From Catellatospora paridis (lineage in GTDB: Bacteria > Actinomycetota > Actinomycetes > Mycobacteriales > Micromonosporaceae), in contig NZ_ML769312.1 in the NCBI RefSeq assembly GCF_009720365.1, positions 62,001 to 126,000 of the forward strand: a DNA stretch of 64,000 nt, read 5' to 3'. The notes under the pieces were generated by a model, which made no database searches, was not told the DNA's origin, and saw nothing but the letters and a program-made list of their open reading frames with translations. A program made the translations under genes and the position numbers. Within the stretch, counting starts at the first letter, position 1. Each line of letters starts with the position of its first letter. Shown piece after piece: positions 56,794 through 63,979 of the stretch.

Positions 56794-58224
56794 CTACTGG
56801 ACGGCTGCGGCGGCGGTGAGAAGGTTGGCGTACCAGGTGGTGTAGGGCAGGTCGGTGGCCGGGTAGTTGGCCAGCGGGGTCGTGGCGAGCGAGGCGGCGT
56901 CGAAGTCCCAGCCGCGCACGATCTTGCCGGCGTTGCGGCTGGAGGTGATGAAGGACTTGTTGGACGCGGTGGACGCGTAGAAGATCGCGCCTTCGGCGAG
57001 CAGCGCGCTGTCGCCGGCCTGGAACTCGTCGAACGCCACCTGCTCGTGGCGGATGCGGGTGGAGCCGACCCGGTCGGTCGCGTAGCGCAGGGTGGTGGCC
57101 GGGGCCGCGCCGTCTGCGCCGGTGCTGACCGTCACCCGCGCGGTTCCGCTGGTGGAGACGTTGGTCGTGAAGCGGGGGTCGGACGTCATGGCGTGGGTCG
57201 CGCTGTTCCACGCCACGGTGGCGGTCGACGGGTCCAGCGTGGCGTCCCAGAACCAGTTCTGGTTCTGCGACGCGCTGCGGTGGATCTCCTTGAGCGCGTT
57301 GCCGGTCGGGCTGACGAAGGCGATCGACGGAAGGACGCCGGAGTCGTACTGCCGGCTGGCCGACCAGGCGATGTCGCCGTCGGCGGTGAACCGGCCGACC
57401 TGGTACCACAGGGTGTTCGCGTTCTGGGACTTGTGCACCTCGACGAGCAGGCCGCTGTCGTTCAACGCGACCGCGGGCGTGGTCCCGGAGCCGTAGCGGC
57501 CGTGGCGCAGCCAGGTGACCCGGCCGTCGGAGCCGTATGTTCCGCTCCAGTACCACAGGGCGCCGCCGGCGTCGTGTACTTCGACGACCTGGCCGTTGGC
57601 GTTGATCGCGACACTCGGGTTGGCGCCGGAGTCGGCCTTGTAAGCGCTGCGCGTGCCGGCGTGGCCGGACAGCAGCGTGATGATCCGTCCGCGCAGCGAA
57701 CCGATCGTGCCGAGGGCGCCGGGTACGTCCTTGGACAGCACGAGCCGTGCCCCGAACGCGTCCGAGAGTTCCCTGTTCAGCGCGGCGAGGTCGCCTGCCG
57801 CGTACGACGTGTTGTCGGTGAGGTTGTCCTTGATGTCGAGCATCACCAGCAGCGGTGCGTGATCGGGATGTGCGGCCGACCAGGCGGCCACCGTCTGCAG
57901 CCACGGTCGCAGGTTGTTCGACGCCGGATTGCCGGCGTGGTCGACCTGGTCACCGGGCGAGTTGTGGCCGACCCCGTAGTCGCCGGCCGTGGCGTAGCCG
58001 TTGTCGTGGATGTCGAACTCGATGAACCGCACGCCGCTGTCGAGTTGCGCGGTGATCGATCCCCTGGTCCCGGCGATGTTGCCCGAGTAGCTGTTGTGGG
58101 TCGCGCGGAAGACGGCGGAGGCGAAGGGCAGGTCGTCGGGCGGGGCGGCGGCGGCAGGAGTGGCGGCGGTCGTGGCCGCGATCGCGAGCAGGGCCGCGAT
58201 CGCCGCGGTGGCGAGTCTTCTCAC
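56794..58224 (-). CDS. Secreted PI-PLC-like protein with inserted repeat domain
   Basis: The 476-aa secreted protein has a signal peptide (AIAALLAIAATTAATPAAAA) and a phosphatidylinositol-specific phospholipase C X-like fold starting VFRATHNSYSGNI (first catalytic His), then FIEFDIHDNG and VGHNSPGD (second His region). After LRGRIITLLSG the fold is interrupted at about 190-350 by three repeats of the type GxxPxVAxNxxGxxVEVHxxxxxxLWYxxG. The PLC end (GKIVRGWDFDAAS) then follows. GTG 58224 is 7 bases after TACGTT (complement of 58232-58237), probably leaderless. The inserted unit may bind a sugar or protein. Confidence 0.85.
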   Translation of the reverse strand: MRRLATAAIAALLAIAATTAATPAAAAPPDDLPFASAVFRATHNSYSGNIAGTRGSITAQLDSGVRFIEFDIHDNGYATAGDYGVGHNSPGDQVDHAGNPASNNLRPWLQTVAAWSAAHPDHAPLLVMLDIKDNLTDNTSYAAGDLAALNRELSDAFGARLVLSKDVPGALGTIGSLRGRIITLLSGHAGTRSAYKADSGANPSVAINANGQVVEVHDAGGALWYWSGTYGSDGRVTWLRHGRYGSGTTPAVALNDSGLLVEVHKSQNANTLWYQVGRFTADGDIAWSASRQYDSGVLPSIAFVSPTGNALKEIHRSASQNQNWFWDATLDPSTATVAWNSATHAMTSDPRFTTNVSTSGTARVTVSTGADGAAPATTLRYATDRVGSTRIRHEQVAFDEFQAGDSALLAEGAIFYASTASNKSFITSSRNAGKIVRGWDFDAASLATTPLANYPATDLPYTTWYANLLTAAAAVQ

Positions 58225-58352
58225 GAGCGGCAACGTACGCCGGTTCGGTGACGGCAATCCATACGCGACCTGAACCGGCGAACTACACCAGCGAGGGCGC
58301 TCCCCGATACCGGGGCTGGACGTGAGGACCGCACGCCGGTGACGCGGGTCCG

Positions 58353-61300
58353 TCAGCGCCCGGTCGGTGGTTGCTCGGCCAGCAGCAGCGGACCGCCGTG
58401 ACCGGGCAGCCCCCGGTCGACCGGGATCGCCTCCTCGACCGCGCCGTCGGCGGTGACGCCGTGAGCGCGGGTCTGCCCGGCCAGGCGCTCGTAGTAGGCC
58501 GATACCGCGGCGGGCACGTCCCGGATGGCGTTGAGCAGCGTGCCTCCCGCCTGCTCGACGACGTCGGCCTCGTGGATCTCGAAGGCCCGGATTCCCTGCA
58601 GCACGGCGGTTTTCAGGTCGCCGAGCAGTTGGACGTCGGCGTGTGCGTACGTGCGGCACAGTGCGGTGACCCGGCGCAGGTCATCCCCGGTCAGCAGCAG
58701 TTCCTTGACGGCGGTCATGGAGTTGCGCACCAGGGTGACGTCCGGCCGGGCGGCCATGGCGGCGAGTTCGGTGTCGAGGTGCCGGATGTCGCGCTCCGGG
58801 TCGCAGAAGCCGACGGTGTGTTGCCACAGGGTGCGCAGGTCGTCGTGCAGGAGCCCGTCGAGGTAGCTGACCAGGAACCGGCGGTGTCCCTCGATGACGT
58901 ACTGCGCTTTGAAGGGCGTCAGGTCCCGGGGGTCTTCGCCCATGGTGGTGACCGAGGAGGTGAAGCCGTAGTCGGCGGTCAGCGCGTTTCTCATGGCGAC
59001 CAGCAGGTACAGGAACCGGACCCAGGTCCGGAACAGTTCTTCCAGGGGCAGCGCGTGCAGGCCGTGCTCGGTGAGCACCACGCCCCAGCGGGCGCCGAAC
59101 TGCAGCCGGCGCAGGTGGCCGATCTGGTACATCGAGAGCTGGGAGTCGATCTCGGCGTGCGCGTGGTGCAGCACTTTGCGGTATGCCGCGGTCGCGTCCA
59201 TGCCGACGTAGTTGCGTACGATATGCGGCCCGCCGATGTGCAGGTGGATGAACTCGCTGACGTCGATCACGGCGCCGCCGATCGCCATCCAGTAGCCCGT
59301 GTCGGGGGTGTCGTGCTGCGCCAGGTCCGATATCTCGAAGCGGGGGGTCTGCTGCGCGTGGCCGAGGTAGGTGGTGAAGACGTCCTGGGCGAGGCGTCCG
59401 TCGGCCACCAGCTGGCGGAGGAACTCCCGGCCGTCGCCGGGCACGATGCCGGTCAGCGCCTGGAGTACGGCGACGGAGAAGCGTGCACTGCCGCAGACGT
59501 AGACGAATGCGCCGCGGCCGCCGTCTGCTTCGGGCCGCAGCAGTTCCCAGAGTGCGTCTGCCTCGGCGCGGATCACGTCGTCGACCCGCCGCCGCTGCCC
59601 GGCACCGACGACATGGCGGCGGCCGTCGAACTGGATCGCGGCATCGGCGCGGGAGAACGCGACCGACAGGTTCAACCGGCCCGCGGCTGCCGCCGAATCC
59701 AGGTCGGTGTGTTCGACGAATTCGTCCGGCGTTCGGATGCCCAGGTAGAGCCGGTTGTCGCCCGGGCCGGTGCGGGCGGCGACGAACCCCAGGAACGGGG
59801 CGATCCCGGAGCCGGCGGCGAACATGACGACGGGTCGGGCCGGGTCGGCCGGCAGCCGGAACCGGGGCGTGGCCACGATCTGCAGGGACAGCCGCTGCCG
59901 GCCGTCGAGGCCAGCCCGGCGCAGGAAATGCGATGCCGCGCCCTGGCGTTTGCGCGGGTACGACCACGGCGTGCGGGCCGAGGTGTAGTCGAGGCCGGCG
60001 ACGACCAGTTTCAGGGTGGTCGCCGGTTCGCCGGGCGGCGGAGCCGAAGCGATCGAGTACAGCCGGAACGGCTCGGGCGCGACGACCGCGCAGAAGGCGT
60101 CGCTGTCGCCCGCGTCGGCCTTCCACAGCCGGGTGACGTCATACCCGCCGGCGTACAGCAGGTTCAGCACGTCCCACAGTTCCCACTGGTCCTCCAGGCG
60201 GGCGTCGACGACCCGCTGCCACGCGCCGACCGCCGTGAGTCTCACCAGTCGTTTGGCCACCTCCCGGCCGATCGGCCGGAGCTGGGCGAAGCGCAGCAGC
60301 GTCCGCAGCGGCAGGACGTCGACCTCGCCGTAGCCCTCCCGGCACGCCACCGCCGCCCGCCATCGCGGGGTGAGCGGCACCAGCTCGTCGCCGGTGGCCT
60401 GCAGGGCGGCGACCGTGCGGCGCACCAGGTCGTCGTCGTGCTCGGCCAGCACGCCGACCCGGTCACCGGGCAGGTGGTGCACGCCCTGGCCGGTGACGTC
60501 GATGTCCAGGTGGCAGGTCCAGGCGCCGGACTCGCCGGTGACGACCCGGCCCCGGCGGGCGGTTCCGAACACCACGGGCGCGCCGACCGGGGGGCGGCGC
60601 TCCTCGCGCACGACGGCCAGTTCCCCGTCGACCTTGTCCCAGGTCCGGTCCTTGAACAATCCGGTGAACCGGGCGCCGGTGGTCACCTGCCGGCCGACCT
60701 TGAACGCCACTTCCAGGAAACCGTACGCCTTGATGCGGTGCAGGCCCATCCAGCCGCGGTCGCCGACGTAGGCGTTGAGCACGGCGTTGTAGACGCCGCG
60801 CAGGGCGCTGCTGCGGGTGTCTTCCACGTACTGGCGCACCGACACCTCGCGTAGCGCCGCGACGAGTTCCTGCCAGTGCCGTGGGAAGTATCCGGCGAGG
60901 TAGGTGCTCTGCTGCCCGACCAGCGAGCCGTAGTCCCTGCGCTCGAGGAACGCGTCCAGCGCGTGGATCTGCGGTTGGGCGGTGCCGCTCGGGCTGGGCG
61001 CGCCGTCGAAGATCGGCACTCCGGCGGTGCCGACCGTCTTTGCCCACAGCACCTGGTCGAGCGGATGCCGGGCGCGGGGGTTGGGATCGATCTGGGGGTA
61101 GATGGCCTGGGTGACGTGCTGCAGCTGGTCGAGGATCACCAGCAGCGCGCCTTCCAGGGCGGCCGGGTCGTCGGCGACCACGGCCTCCTGGGCGTCGAGC
61201 ATGGCGCCCAGCACGGGGGTGAGCCCCATCGCGAATTCGGTGGTGACCAGGTAGAACACCCGCTCGGCGGCGTTGTTCCAGGTCGGCACGAGTAGGTCCA

Positions 61301-62078
61301 TGTTGTCCAGCACCCGGGGGCCGGACGGGTCGCGCAGGCGCCAGTTGTAGAAGAACAGGTCGATGTACGACACGGCCGGGGTCTGCTTGCCCAGCCGTCG
61401 CGACACGGTCGTCCATGGCCGCAGCAGCGAGTCGGGCAGCGCGGCCGGCGGGTCGATCGCCATGTACTGGTAGGCGTGGGCGAACACGCCGAGCAGGGTC
61501 GAGGCACGCAGCAGGTACCGGTCGGGCAGCGCCTCGCGTCTGGCGTCGAGGACCGGCATCGCGTCGAACGCCCGGCGCAGCGTGAGCCGGCGGAACAGCT
61601 CAGGCAGCCGGTCGGTCATCTCGTCCCAGGCGCGGTGCGAGTCCGGGAAGGCCAGCAGCGGTGGCTGCGCGGGCAGGAACCCGTGCGCGACCGACAGGAA
61701 CCCGTCGAGCTCGTGGCCGACCTGCCGGTTGTGCGCCTGAGCGGCCTGCACCACCCGTCGTGCGGCGACCTCGGGCGGGGTTTCCGGCCGGTGGACGGTC
61801 AGGTGCGATTCGTCGACGACCATGGTCGCGTTCGGGTCGAGGAACATCCACGCCAGGTCGTACCGGCCGATCCGGATCCGATCCCCGGGAACGAGCGCCT
61901 GACGGCGGGTCAGCCGCTGATCGTTGACGTACGTGCCGTTGGTGCTGCCGAGATCGGTGAGCACGAGATATTCGTCGATGAGCTCCAGGCGTGCGTGGCG
62001 CCGGGAGATGCCGGGGTCGTCGAGTGCCACCGCGGCCACGCCGCTGTCACGGCCGAAGGTGACCGGCAGCGCGCACAC
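58353..62078 (-). CDS. FHA / IDO-like heme / NADPH-FAD reductase / cytochrome b5 fusion protein
   Basis: At least 1241 aa, with no signal peptide. In order: an FHA domain (1-85; GISRRHARLEL, DLGSTNGTYVND); an indoleamine-2,3-dioxygenase-like domain (about 125-485; VAHGFLPAQPPLLAFP, LGVFAHAYQY, SYIDLFFYNWR; His447 in LHRIKAYG is the proximal-ligand candidate); a P450-reductase-type FAD/NADPH module (about 500-905; RLYSIASAP, MFAAGSGIAPFLGF, YVCGSARFSVAVLQ) without a flavodoxin domain; a cytochrome b5 domain (about 924-993; HIGG for HPGG, His971/His974); and a helical C-terminus. GTG 62078 is the first standard start, but FHA strand 1 lies upstream, so translation may begin at ATT 62135. It overlaps the CBS gene, so they form one unit. 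Confidence 0.88.
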   Translation of the reverse strand: MCALPVTFGRDSGVAAVALDDPGISRRHARLELIDEYLVLTDLGSTNGTYVNDQRLTRRQALVPGDRIRIGRYDLAWMFLDPNATMVVDESHLTVHRPETPPEVAARRVVQAAQAHNRQVGHELDGFLSVAHGFLPAQPPLLAFPDSHRAWDEMTDRLPELFRRLTLRRAFDAMPVLDARREALPDRYLLRASTLLGVFAHAYQYMAIDPPAALPDSLLRPWTTVSRRLGKQTPAVSYIDLFFYNWRLRDPSGPRVLDNMDLLVPTWNNAAERVFYLVTTEFAMGLTPVLGAMLDAQEAVVADDPAALEGALLVILDQLQHVTQAIYPQIDPNPRARHPLDQVLWAKTVGTAGVPIFDGAPSPSGTAQPQIHALDAFLERRDYGSLVGQQSTYLAGYFPRHWQELVAALREVSVRQYVEDTRSSALRGVYNAVLNAYVGDRGWMGLHRIKAYGFLEVAFKVGRQVTTGARFTGLFKDRTWDKVDGELAVVREERRPPVGAPVVFGTARRGRVVTGESGAWTCHLDIDVTGQGVHHLPGDRVGVLAEHDDDLVRRTVAALQATGDELVPLTPRWRAAVACREGYGEVDVLPLRTLLRFAQLRPIGREVAKRLVRLTAVGAWQRVVDARLEDQWELWDVLNLLYAGGYDVTRLWKADAGDSDAFCAVVAPEPFRLYSIASAPPPGEPATTLKLVVAGLDYTSARTPWSYPRKRQGAASHFLRRAGLDGRQRLSLQIVATPRFRLPADPARPVVMFAAGSGIAPFLGFVAARTGPGDNRLYLGIRTPDEFVEHTDLDSAAAAGRLNLSVAFSRADAAIQFDGRRHVVGAGQRRRVDDVIRAEADALWELLRPEADGGRGAFVYVCGSARFSVAVLQALTGIVPGDGREFLRQLVADGRLAQDVFTTYLGHAQQTPRFEISDLAQHDTPDTGYWMAIGGAVIDVSEFIHLHIGGPHIVRNYVGMDATAAYRKVLHHAHAEIDSQLSMYQIGHLRRLQFGARWGVVLTEHGLHALPLEELFRTWVRFLYLLVAMRNALTADYGFTSSVTTMGEDPRDLTPFKAQYVIEGHRRFLVSYLDGLLHDDLRTLWQHTVGFCDPERDIRHLDTELAAMAARPDVTLVRNSMTAVKELLLTGDDLRRVTALCRTYAHADVQLLGDLKTAVLQGIRAFEIHEADVVEQAGGTLLNAIRDVPAAVSAYYERLAGQTRAHGVTADGAVEEAIPVDRGLPGHGGPLLLAEQPPTGR

Positions 62079-62127
62079 CTGCTCACTGGTCGCCTGGGTG
62101 TGCCGATCGGTCAGGACCAGCCGGAGC

Positions 62128-62610
62128 TCAGGAATGGTAGATCACCGCTCGGCACAGGTCGGCGCGCGACAGGGTGCCCACGAGCTTGCCGTCGTCGACG
62201 ACGGGAAGCCTCCGGATCCCGCGGTCGATCATGACGATCGCCGCTCGGGCGAGCTCGTCGGTCGAGCGGACGGTCGCCGCGTCGCGTACGACGAGGGGGT
62301 CGACGGGCCGGTCGGCGAGGGTGCGGCCCCGCTCCAGGAAGATCCGGAACGCGTCGGCGAGCGTGCCACCGCCGGCGGTGACGTCATCGAAGCCGGGCAG
62401 CATCGCCCGCACCAGGTCCTCTTCCGACAGTGAGCCGACGAACCGGCCTTCGTGGTCCAGCACCATCAGCTGGCCGACCTCCGAGACGCTGACCACCTCA
62501 GCCGCCCGCCGGATGGTCGCACCGAGCCGGATGTACGCCGGGAACGCCGTCATCACGTCGCCGACTCGCACGCCACCTCCCAGGTCCTGTCCGCGGTCGT
62601 CTCGCGCCAT
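62128..62610 (-). CDS. CBS-domain pair protein
   Basis: The 160-aa protein consists of two CBS motifs (VGDVMTAFPAYIRLGATIRRA with LMVLDHEGRFVGSLSEEDL; then VVRDAATVRSTDELARAA with RRLPVVDDGKLVGTLSRADL). CBS pairs bind adenine nucleotides or SAM and act as energy or ligand sensors. ATG 62610 has AGGTG upstream, and the open frame to 62841 is not supported. Its last codons overlap the FHA-heme gene, which suggests the two proteins are made together and that adenylate or NAD state may control the redox enzyme. Confidence 0.9.
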   Translation of the reverse strand: MARDDRGQDLGGGVRVGDVMTAFPAYIRLGATIRRAAEVVSVSEVGQLMVLDHEGRFVGSLSEEDLVRAMLPGFDDVTAGGGTLADAFRIFLERGRTLADRPVDPLVVRDAATVRSTDELARAAIVMIDRGIRRLPVVDDGKLVGTLSRADLCRAVIYHS

Positions 62611-62859: not shown

Positions 62860-63768
62860 TCAGCCCGGGCGGCGTCCCCATGCCGAGATCAGCGGCGCGA
62901 GCGTGAGGTCGAGCTCGCCGGCATCGACGGCGGTCAGGTGCCCGTCGATCTCGGCGTCGTCGGCCAGCCCCGCGGCGAGCAACTCGGCGCGGACCATGCG
63001 CACCGTCGCGGTCTCCAGCCGGTCGCAGGCCACCCCGCCGACCGGGAAGCAGCCGGCCGCCGTGACATCGACCAGGCCCGCCGCACGCAACGCCCGCGGC
63101 AGCGTGCGGCCGAAGCGCAGATCGGCGCCGCGGCGGGTCATCAACTCCCGGACCGCGCGCCGCAGCCGGTTGGCGCGCCGCTGCGCCGGGCCGACCTCAT
63201 CGAGGCAGGCCAGCGGCTGCAGCTCGGTGTCGGCATCCTCTACCAACAGCCAGCCGCCGGGCCGCAACGCCGCCACCATCGTCGCCAACGCCCGGGCACG
63301 GTCGGGCACGTGAACGAGCACGAGCCGCGCGTGTACCAGGTCGAACGAGCCCGGCTGCGGCGGCGGGTCCCCGACGACGTCGTGCCGGCGCACCTCGTAC
63401 CCGCTGTGCGGGTCCAACCAGGCCGGATTGATGTCCGTGGCCAGCACGTGACCGGTTGGTCCGACGGCCGTGGACAGTGCCTCGGGAATGCTGGGGCCTC
63501 CGGCGCCGACTTCCCAGCAGCGCCAGCCCGCCTTCACGCCGAGCCGGTCGAAGTGCCCGCGCGTGACACCGTCGAACAGCTCGGCCAGCCAGGTGAACCG
63601 CTCGCCCGCCTCGACCCGGGCGTTGTCGAGCAGGTAGCGGTGATCCGGAGAAGACTCGAGGGCGTCCGGCGATGGGAGCCCGGACTGCGCGCCGGCAGTA
63701 TTCACCGGCCCGCCCGCGGTCGTGTCCGGCTCGGACCCGGGGTCGACGACGGGCTGCGACGAACTCAT
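62860..63768 (-). CDS. Class I SAM-dependent methyltransferase
   Basis: Of 302 aa, after a disordered Ser/Pro/Gly-rich N-terminus (1-45) comes a Rossmann methyltransferase: CWEVGAGGPSIPEAL (motif I, SAM-binding), VLATDINPAWLD (acidic residue after strand 2), FDLVHARLVLVHVP (motif IV) and LRPGGWLLVEDAD. The substrate is unknown. ATG 63768 follows GAGGA; the frame is open back to 63882. It lies 249 bp upstream of the CBS gene on the same strand, so it may have its own promoter and need not belong to the FHA unit. Confidence 0.9.
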   Translation of the reverse strand: MSSSQPVVDPGSEPDTTAGGPVNTAGAQSGLPSPDALESSPDHRYLLDNARVEAGERFTWLAELFDGVTRGHFDRLGVKAGWRCWEVGAGGPSIPEALSTAVGPTGHVLATDINPAWLDPHSGYEVRRHDVVGDPPPQPGSFDLVHARLVLVHVPDRARALATMVAALRPGGWLLVEDADTELQPLACLDEVGPAQRRANRLRRAVRELMTRRGADLRFGRTLPRALRAAGLVDVTAAGCFPVGGVACDRLETATVRMVRAELLAAGLADDAEIDGHLTAVDAGELDLTLAPLISAWGRRPG

Positions 63769-63979
63769 GCTCACATCCTCACGACCTGCCGCGTGCTGTG
63801 CCAGCACGACACGGGATGAAACCAGACACAAGCCCAGGGTCGGTTGAAGGCTACGGAGCCAGCTCAGCGCCCAGCTGCTCAACTGGTGATTCTGCTGATT
63901 CCCGCATCGGAGGTTTCTGCTGGAATCGACGCCTGCCGATTAAGGCTCAGTCGAACAGCATCTCAGAAGGGATCTCGAC

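Follow-up and report, generated by a model that had tools for sequence, protein, structure and literature searches.

P450 BM3 (CYP102A1) joins a Cys-ligated P450 heme domain and an FMN domain to a reductase of the NADPH-P450 reductase (CPR) type, and flavohemoglobin places a globin heme domain and an FAD/NAD module in one chain, without cytochrome b5. The family of indoleamine dioxygenase (IDO; Pfam PF01231) comprises IDO1, IDO2 and prokaryotic enzymes. IDO1 is reported to work in vitro with CPR, with or without b5, and both the in vivo role of this support and the cellular electron source of the enzyme are described as still unclear in the accessible text of PMC13142367. PrnB, MarE, TyrH and SfmD, related to IDO and TDO, carry a His-ligated heme and act on varied aromatic substrates; PrnB failed to form a product with the redox partners offered to it, among them b5 and P450 reductase, as far as the accessible text of PMC11791213 goes, so that kinship with IDO does not predict activity.

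Here, we describe a gene that shares features with each of these systems, in a 64,000-nucleotide stretch of Catellatospora paridis DNA (hereafter the window). A single polypeptide contains an FHA domain, an IDO-related heme domain, a CysJ/CPR-type FAD/NADPH reductase, cytochrome b5 and a helical C-terminus, and the adjacent gene encodes a two-CBS protein (Table 1). The fusion architecture is real: the open reading frame 58353–62078 (−) is present, and its frame stays open up to 62138. Pfam, NCBIfam and Foldseek confirm the order of FHA, IDO-like, reductase and b5 domains given in the original prediction, which missed the C-terminal domain.

The fusion shares profile kinship, the proximal His and an Asn-Trp core with IDO, and its electrons would be reductase-driven, as those of IDO1 are reported to be in vitro. 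Unlike IDO, it lacks Arg231 and the G[GA]SxxQSS and GTGG loops, carries a fused reductase, b5 and other domains, and occupies a separate branch of the tree. It is predicted to be His-ligated like PrnB, MarE, TyrH and SfmD, whereas the redox partners of PrnB, by the description in the accessible text of PMC11791213, are separate and here they are fused. As in P450 BM3, which tops the Foldseek list, a heme domain is fused to a CPR-type reductase, and the family differs from P450 BM3 in having an IDO-type domain and cytochrome b5. The FAD/NADPH part resembles CysJ and NADPH-P450 reductase in sequence and fold, but a flavodoxin domain was not detected, and 33 of 36 members have Phe as the C-terminal aromatic of the module. 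With flavohemoglobin the fusion has in common the presence of heme and flavin modules in one chain; the IDO-type domain and b5 set it apart. A search of the open-licence literature did not find a description of the FHA/IDO/reductase/b5 architecture with a CBS partner. The parts are already known, and their combination, its breadth and the CBS partner are apparently undescribed.

Table 1. Features of the fusion gene and its CBS partner (window positions)
Feature	Position	Strand	Evidence or remark
Fusion gene: FHA, IDO-related heme, FAD/NADPH reductase, cytochrome b5, helical C-terminus	58353–62135	−	~1260 aa
Probable AUU start codon	62133–62135	−	Lies within the end of the CBS gene
FHA domain	61866–62063	−	Pfam PF00498, E = 9.7e-19, 68 bits (cut-off 20.7)
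IDO-like heme domain	60771–61694	−	PF01231, E = 5.3e-30; residues 129–436; aligned domain extends to ~60588
Codon of predicted proximal heme His (His447, numbered from GTG 62078)	60738–60740	−	36/36 aligned members
CysJ/CPR/P450-BM3-type FAD + NADPH module	59376–60557	−	NCBIfam NF004859, E = 1.4e-29; Foldseek
Cytochrome b5 domain	59112–59330	−	PF00173, E = 2.4e-12; two heme-ligand His, each 36/36
C-terminal helical domain, without recognised relative	58428–59126	−	pLDDT 93.0; best Foldseek E = 0.052
Two-CBS partner gene	62128–62571	−	Pfam, two CBS stretches, E = 3.7e-22

The fusion is not due to chance: it occurs in 12 of 300 Micromonosporaceae genomes, the window's included, with 88–100% identity over the IDO part and open frames of 1240–1280 aa. 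Across the phylum, 396 genomes gave four matches, and a Pfam search named the same four: the window's own genome, a second (G439) with 46% identity over the IDO part in a frame of 1331 aa, a third (G461) with 38% identity over this part in a frame of 1177 aa and another match in a 636-aa frame, and a fourth (G322) with a match within a 439-aa frame. The best 80 matches of a GTDB genome scan extend the family to at least 59 loci in six phyla. These matches correspond to 78 loci, 18 of which (L093–L110) match by the reductase part only; removal of L085, which has no long frame, from the remaining 60 leaves 59, many from metagenome bins. In 57 of the 59, permissive patterns recognise the IDO His, FAD and b5 motifs; the other two are fragments. 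An alignment of 36 members was built from 33 of these loci, the window and two distant genomes, leaving out near duplicates and fragments; because two reductase motifs served to gather the members, which were then ranked on their resemblance to the window protein, the conservation counts given here hold within this selected set. One Chloroflexi bin (54-19) holds two fusion copies, L061 and L064. Among viral contigs, 78 stretches matched a search pattern and none was confirmed as a relative of the fusion, and a viral origin was rejected on this absence. Six of 72,556 plasmid records matched, all of them haloarchaeal with 27–29% identity, and the three inspected contain ordinary IDO-sized genes.

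The heme domain is IDO-related, and sequence comparison places it in a clade separate from canonical IDOs. In the window protein it scores 105 bits against PF01231, far beyond the Pfam cut-off of 26, which bears out the predicted IDO kinship; the lack of such a match, which would have overturned the original prediction, did not arise. The family profile retrieved 25 PDB matches at E ≤ 0.001, all of them IDO1 or IDO2 chains, and aligned with four canonical prokaryotic IDOs at an hhalign probability of 99.9; the best PDB sequence matches of the window protein itself were CysJ, IDO2 and P450-BM3-type reductases, with IDO1 lower down. The proximal His, positioned by alignment with canonical IDOs, is invariant (36/36) and coincides with His447, the residue originally proposed as the heme ligand. 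At the level of sequence, the IDO-type profile match and this invariant His are also what a putative member of the heme-dependent aromatic oxygenase superfamily would show. The tryptophan-site motifs of the canonical enzymes are gone. Arg231 (human IDO1 numbering), the substrate-site arginine, is present in five of five canonical prokaryotic IDOs, whereas the 36 members have Ala (23) or Gly (13) instead, in a region of uncertain alignment where the absence of Arg is surer than its exact aligned partner. Immediately before this column lies an invariant W-x-K (Trp and Lys 36/36). The loops G[GA]SxxQSS and GTGG[ST] are each found in five of five canonical prokaryotic IDOs and in none of the 36 members. 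A branch with 100/100 support divides the 36 fusion domains from the five canonical IDOs in a tree for which the program flags long branches. The label 'heme oxygenase-like' attached earlier to the protein is misleading: up to E = 1, no heme-oxygenase family in Pfam or NCBIfam matched the window protein, and the HO-1 entries among its PDB matches come from engineered HO-1/CPR fusions, for which the alignment covers the reductase.

The reductase module follows the heme domain. The sulfite-reductase flavoprotein profile of NCBIfam covers residues 508–901 with a score far below the model's own cut-off; the module is therefore a relative of CysJ and not CysJ itself. In Pfam, NAD_binding_1 is just at its cut-off (E = 2.6e-4) and FAD_binding_1 below it (E = 0.0072), and no flavodoxin (FMN) domain matched the window protein up to E = 1. 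The functional positions are well preserved: the FAD-site Arg and the cysteine of the CG motif are invariant (36/36 each), as are both b5 histidines, and the NADPH 2'-phosphate site has Ser in 31 and Thr in 5 of the 36 members, followed by Arg in 28. These residues, together with the profile matches in Table 1, substantiate the reductase and cytochrome b5 assignments of the original prediction.

An AlphaFold2 model of 1139 residues, calculated with the 36-row alignment and excluding the FHA domain, has a mean pLDDT of 87.5 and a pTM of 0.89. The best 50 of 674 Foldseek matches are P450-BM3, CysJ and P450-reductase structures, together with some engineered HO-1/CPR fusions, and all 50 match via the reductase and none via the IDO part. 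The C-terminal helical domain, modelled alone with high confidence (Table 1), resembles nothing recognised: beyond the weak Foldseek match, a PDB profile search gave a best E of 0.14, and Pfam searches over the 36 members returned seven families with at most three members each (best E = 0.0031) and none for the window member.

In 53 of 59 loci, a CBS gene on the same strand precedes the fusion on its upstream side (clustering of all frames), so that the coupling to a CBS sensor proposed for the window holds at the gene level. The six loci without it comprise four from Aquimarina and two that start at a contig end. In 52 of the 53, the CBS gene overlaps the fusion frame or ends at most 282 bases away; the distance is 931 in L087, a locus interrupted by an N run. 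For the window, the likeliest CBS start by comparison with relatives is GTG 62571, which has GGGAGG upstream; the open frame reaches ATG 62610 and continues further. Among 56 aligned CBS proteins, the S-x-x-D motif, presumably an adenine nucleotide contact, has Ser in 51 and Asp in 56 for copy 1, and Ser in 55, Asp in 47 and Asn in 9 for copy 2. CBS aside, clustering of all frames found no neighbour common to most of the 59 loci. FHA, detected in the window protein as predicted, is present at E ≤ 0.001 in 35 of 55 N-termini (Pfam, four fragments left out) and is therefore optional and outside the family core; we used the Pfam count, since a regular-expression count (22/59) missed Pfam-confirmed cases. 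Other additions occur: a C-terminal cNMP-binding domain in L078 (L078:5139-6143) and a C-terminal extension like saccharopine dehydrogenase in L076 (L076:4744-6045). The window's gene downstream of the fusion, 56794–58251 (−), has a weak PI-PLC-C1 match (E = 8.3e-8), and that upstream of the CBS gene, 62860–63882 (−), is class I methyltransferase-like. PADLOC matched neither the fusion nor the CBS protein up to E = 0.01, and a reading of the pair as an anti-phage system was rejected on these grounds.

The original prediction began the fusion at GTG 62078; the frame itself stands, but comparison of junctions indicates that in the actinobacterial clade translation probably starts at a conserved AUU. 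The CBS gene ends at 62128, an 8-base overlap with the fusion (ATT-CCT-GA). In the actinobacterial FHA clade (29 loci plus the window; the pattern required T after CA), 27 of the 30 overlapping junctions have ATT and three (L058, L059, L081) have ATG at the same position. CAT occurs in 29 of 29 junctions with a pattern also permitting CAC (26 loci of this clade, two more of the window's genus and the window). These counts are not independent because many of the species are closely related. The ATT rests on a CAT His codon in the CBS frame, yet the fusion genes of those 26 loci use CAT for just 70 of their 929 His codons. The codons after ATT specify a fairly conserved Leu-Arg-Leu; codons 3–6 show much synonymous variation, and codons 2 and 14–19 vary more. 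The probable AUU start spans Micromonosporaceae, Streptosporangiaceae, Treboniaceae and one Pseudonocardia. A programmed +1 frameshift joining CBS and FHA (TCC TGA) is less likely than AUU initiation, because ATG occupies the same site in three of the 30 junctions and Ktedonospora (L053) has a separate ATG past a gap.

We give roughly even chances to an explanation in which the fusion would be a self-sufficient, His-ligated heme oxygenase that passes electrons from NADPH through FAD and b5 to the IDO-type heme, where O2 would be activated to oxygenate something other than tryptophan. Specifically, NADPH would reduce the FAD of the CysJ/CPR-type module; because the FMN domain is absent, electrons would be routed to the fused cytochrome b5 and from there to the IDO-type heme, which would bind and activate O2 on a substrate that is probably not tryptophan. 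This path is proposed because of the domain order, the conserved residues and the reported support of IDO1 by P450 reductase, with or without b5, in vitro. The co-encoded CBS protein, the standard partner of the fusion, would probably sense an adenine nucleotide, FHA would be an added phosphothreonine docking or gating module in some lineages, and the C-terminal helical domain a structural or regulatory element. The failure of PrnB with b5 and P450 reductase and the copy-2 Asn of nine of the 56 CBS proteins count against this explanation. We infer heme and flavin content, electron path, O2 chemistry, substrate and regulation from these comparisons, including any gating by phosphorylation (FHA) or nucleotides (CBS), as the original prediction also supposed.

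Apart from CBS, the cassette has no neighbour common to most loci, and a role in stress, detoxification or sensing therefore fits no worse than a metabolic one; readings of the former kind keep substantial weight. The fusion may be an NADPH-dependent detoxifier or scavenger of a small molecule such as NO, O2 or peroxide, resembling flavohemoglobin in function but built on an IDO-type heme domain instead of a globin. We consider this unlikely overall, and several features speak for it: the heme domain and reductase share one chain, the cassette mostly lacks pathway neighbours yet carries sensor-type domains (CBS, FHA or cNMP), and the remodelled stretch contains the invariant Trp and Lys. Slightly less probable is a redox or gas sensor, in which the reductase and b5 would do no more than adjust the redox state of the heme, and the signal would be relayed by FHA, CBS and the C-terminal domain. 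The frequency of signalling-type modules (CBS in 53/59 loci, FHA in 35/55, a cNMP-binding domain in L078) suits such a sensor, but a full NADPH reductase seems to us costly for a pure sensor, and an output domain was not recognised, the C-terminal domain having no recognised relative.

The self-sufficient indoleamine/tryptophan dioxygenase of the original prediction appears improbable. The PF01231 match would agree with it, as would the in vitro activity reported for IDO1 with CPR, whether or not b5 is present (PMC13142367, accessible text), but Arg231 and both loops are absent throughout the 36 members and present in all five canonical prokaryotic IDOs. The genomic context also argues against it: in the window's genome, a TDO-like gene is directly followed by kynureninase (contig C16:190088-192230); by contrast, two of the three haloarchaeal canonical IDOs examined adjoin kynU. 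With the IDO signatures lost and a TDO of its own next to kynureninase, the protein is therefore probably not an indoleamine dioxygenase. TDO matched in 13 of 14 genomes searched, as did kynureninase, in 11 of them above its cut-off. The window's genome has a second TDO-like gene, on C10.

Four loci (L061, L065, L067, L071) show a different context, a bacillithiol-type cluster in which the cassette lies with genes for BshA-type, BshB1-type, PIG-L/cNMP and 390-aa proteins. Among the cluster proteins scanned, two glycosyltransferases exceed the NCBIfam cut-offs for BshA and two deacetylases those for BshB1. The PIG-L protein (~1015–1060 aa) includes a cNMP domain (Pfam, L061 and L067) and is weakly Mca-like in the two scanned. 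The ~390-aa protein was found in the same four genomes of 30; a GQQ motif suggested BshC, an identity rejected because NCBIfam gave no such match up to E = 0.1 and hhalign a probability of 0.6%. BshA above cut-off occurs in five of the 30 genomes: once in each of these four, at the cluster, and in the Aquimarina genome of L084, where a BshA-type gene was not found in the flanking DNA examined. In the two-copy Chloroflexi bin, the cluster was found at L061 and not at L064. Another genome, that of L086, has a BshC match above and a BshA match below cut-off, side by side in a 1297-aa open frame (G717:C26:61910-64741). The actinobacterial hosts probably produce mycothiol. The fusion could be linked to sugar-thiol metabolism, but a role in oxidising a low-molecular-weight sugar thiol of the bacillithiol or mycothiol type, or in an oxidation that depends on one, is very improbable for the family, given that the cluster occurs in four of 30 genomes, BshA above cut-off is absent from 25 and the 390-aa protein does not match BshC.

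We return to the self-sufficient heme oxygenase. More broadly, and tentatively, at a little under even chances, the family may represent an undescribed, widespread class of His-ligated self-sufficient oxygenases, a counterpart to P450 BM3 with an IDO-type heme, with b5 in place of the FMN domain and with gating by a nucleotide-sensing CBS partner and, in some lineages, by FHA-phosphothreonine or cNMP modules. With IDO-type domain, reductase and b5 naturally fused, an electron route like that of IDO1 can be put to a direct test within a single chain, and the CBS protein that nearly always accompanies the fusion gives a means of approaching how nucleotides control heme oxygenation. If the explanation is true, a His-ligated oxygenase in one chain would also lend itself to use as a scaffold for biocatalysis.
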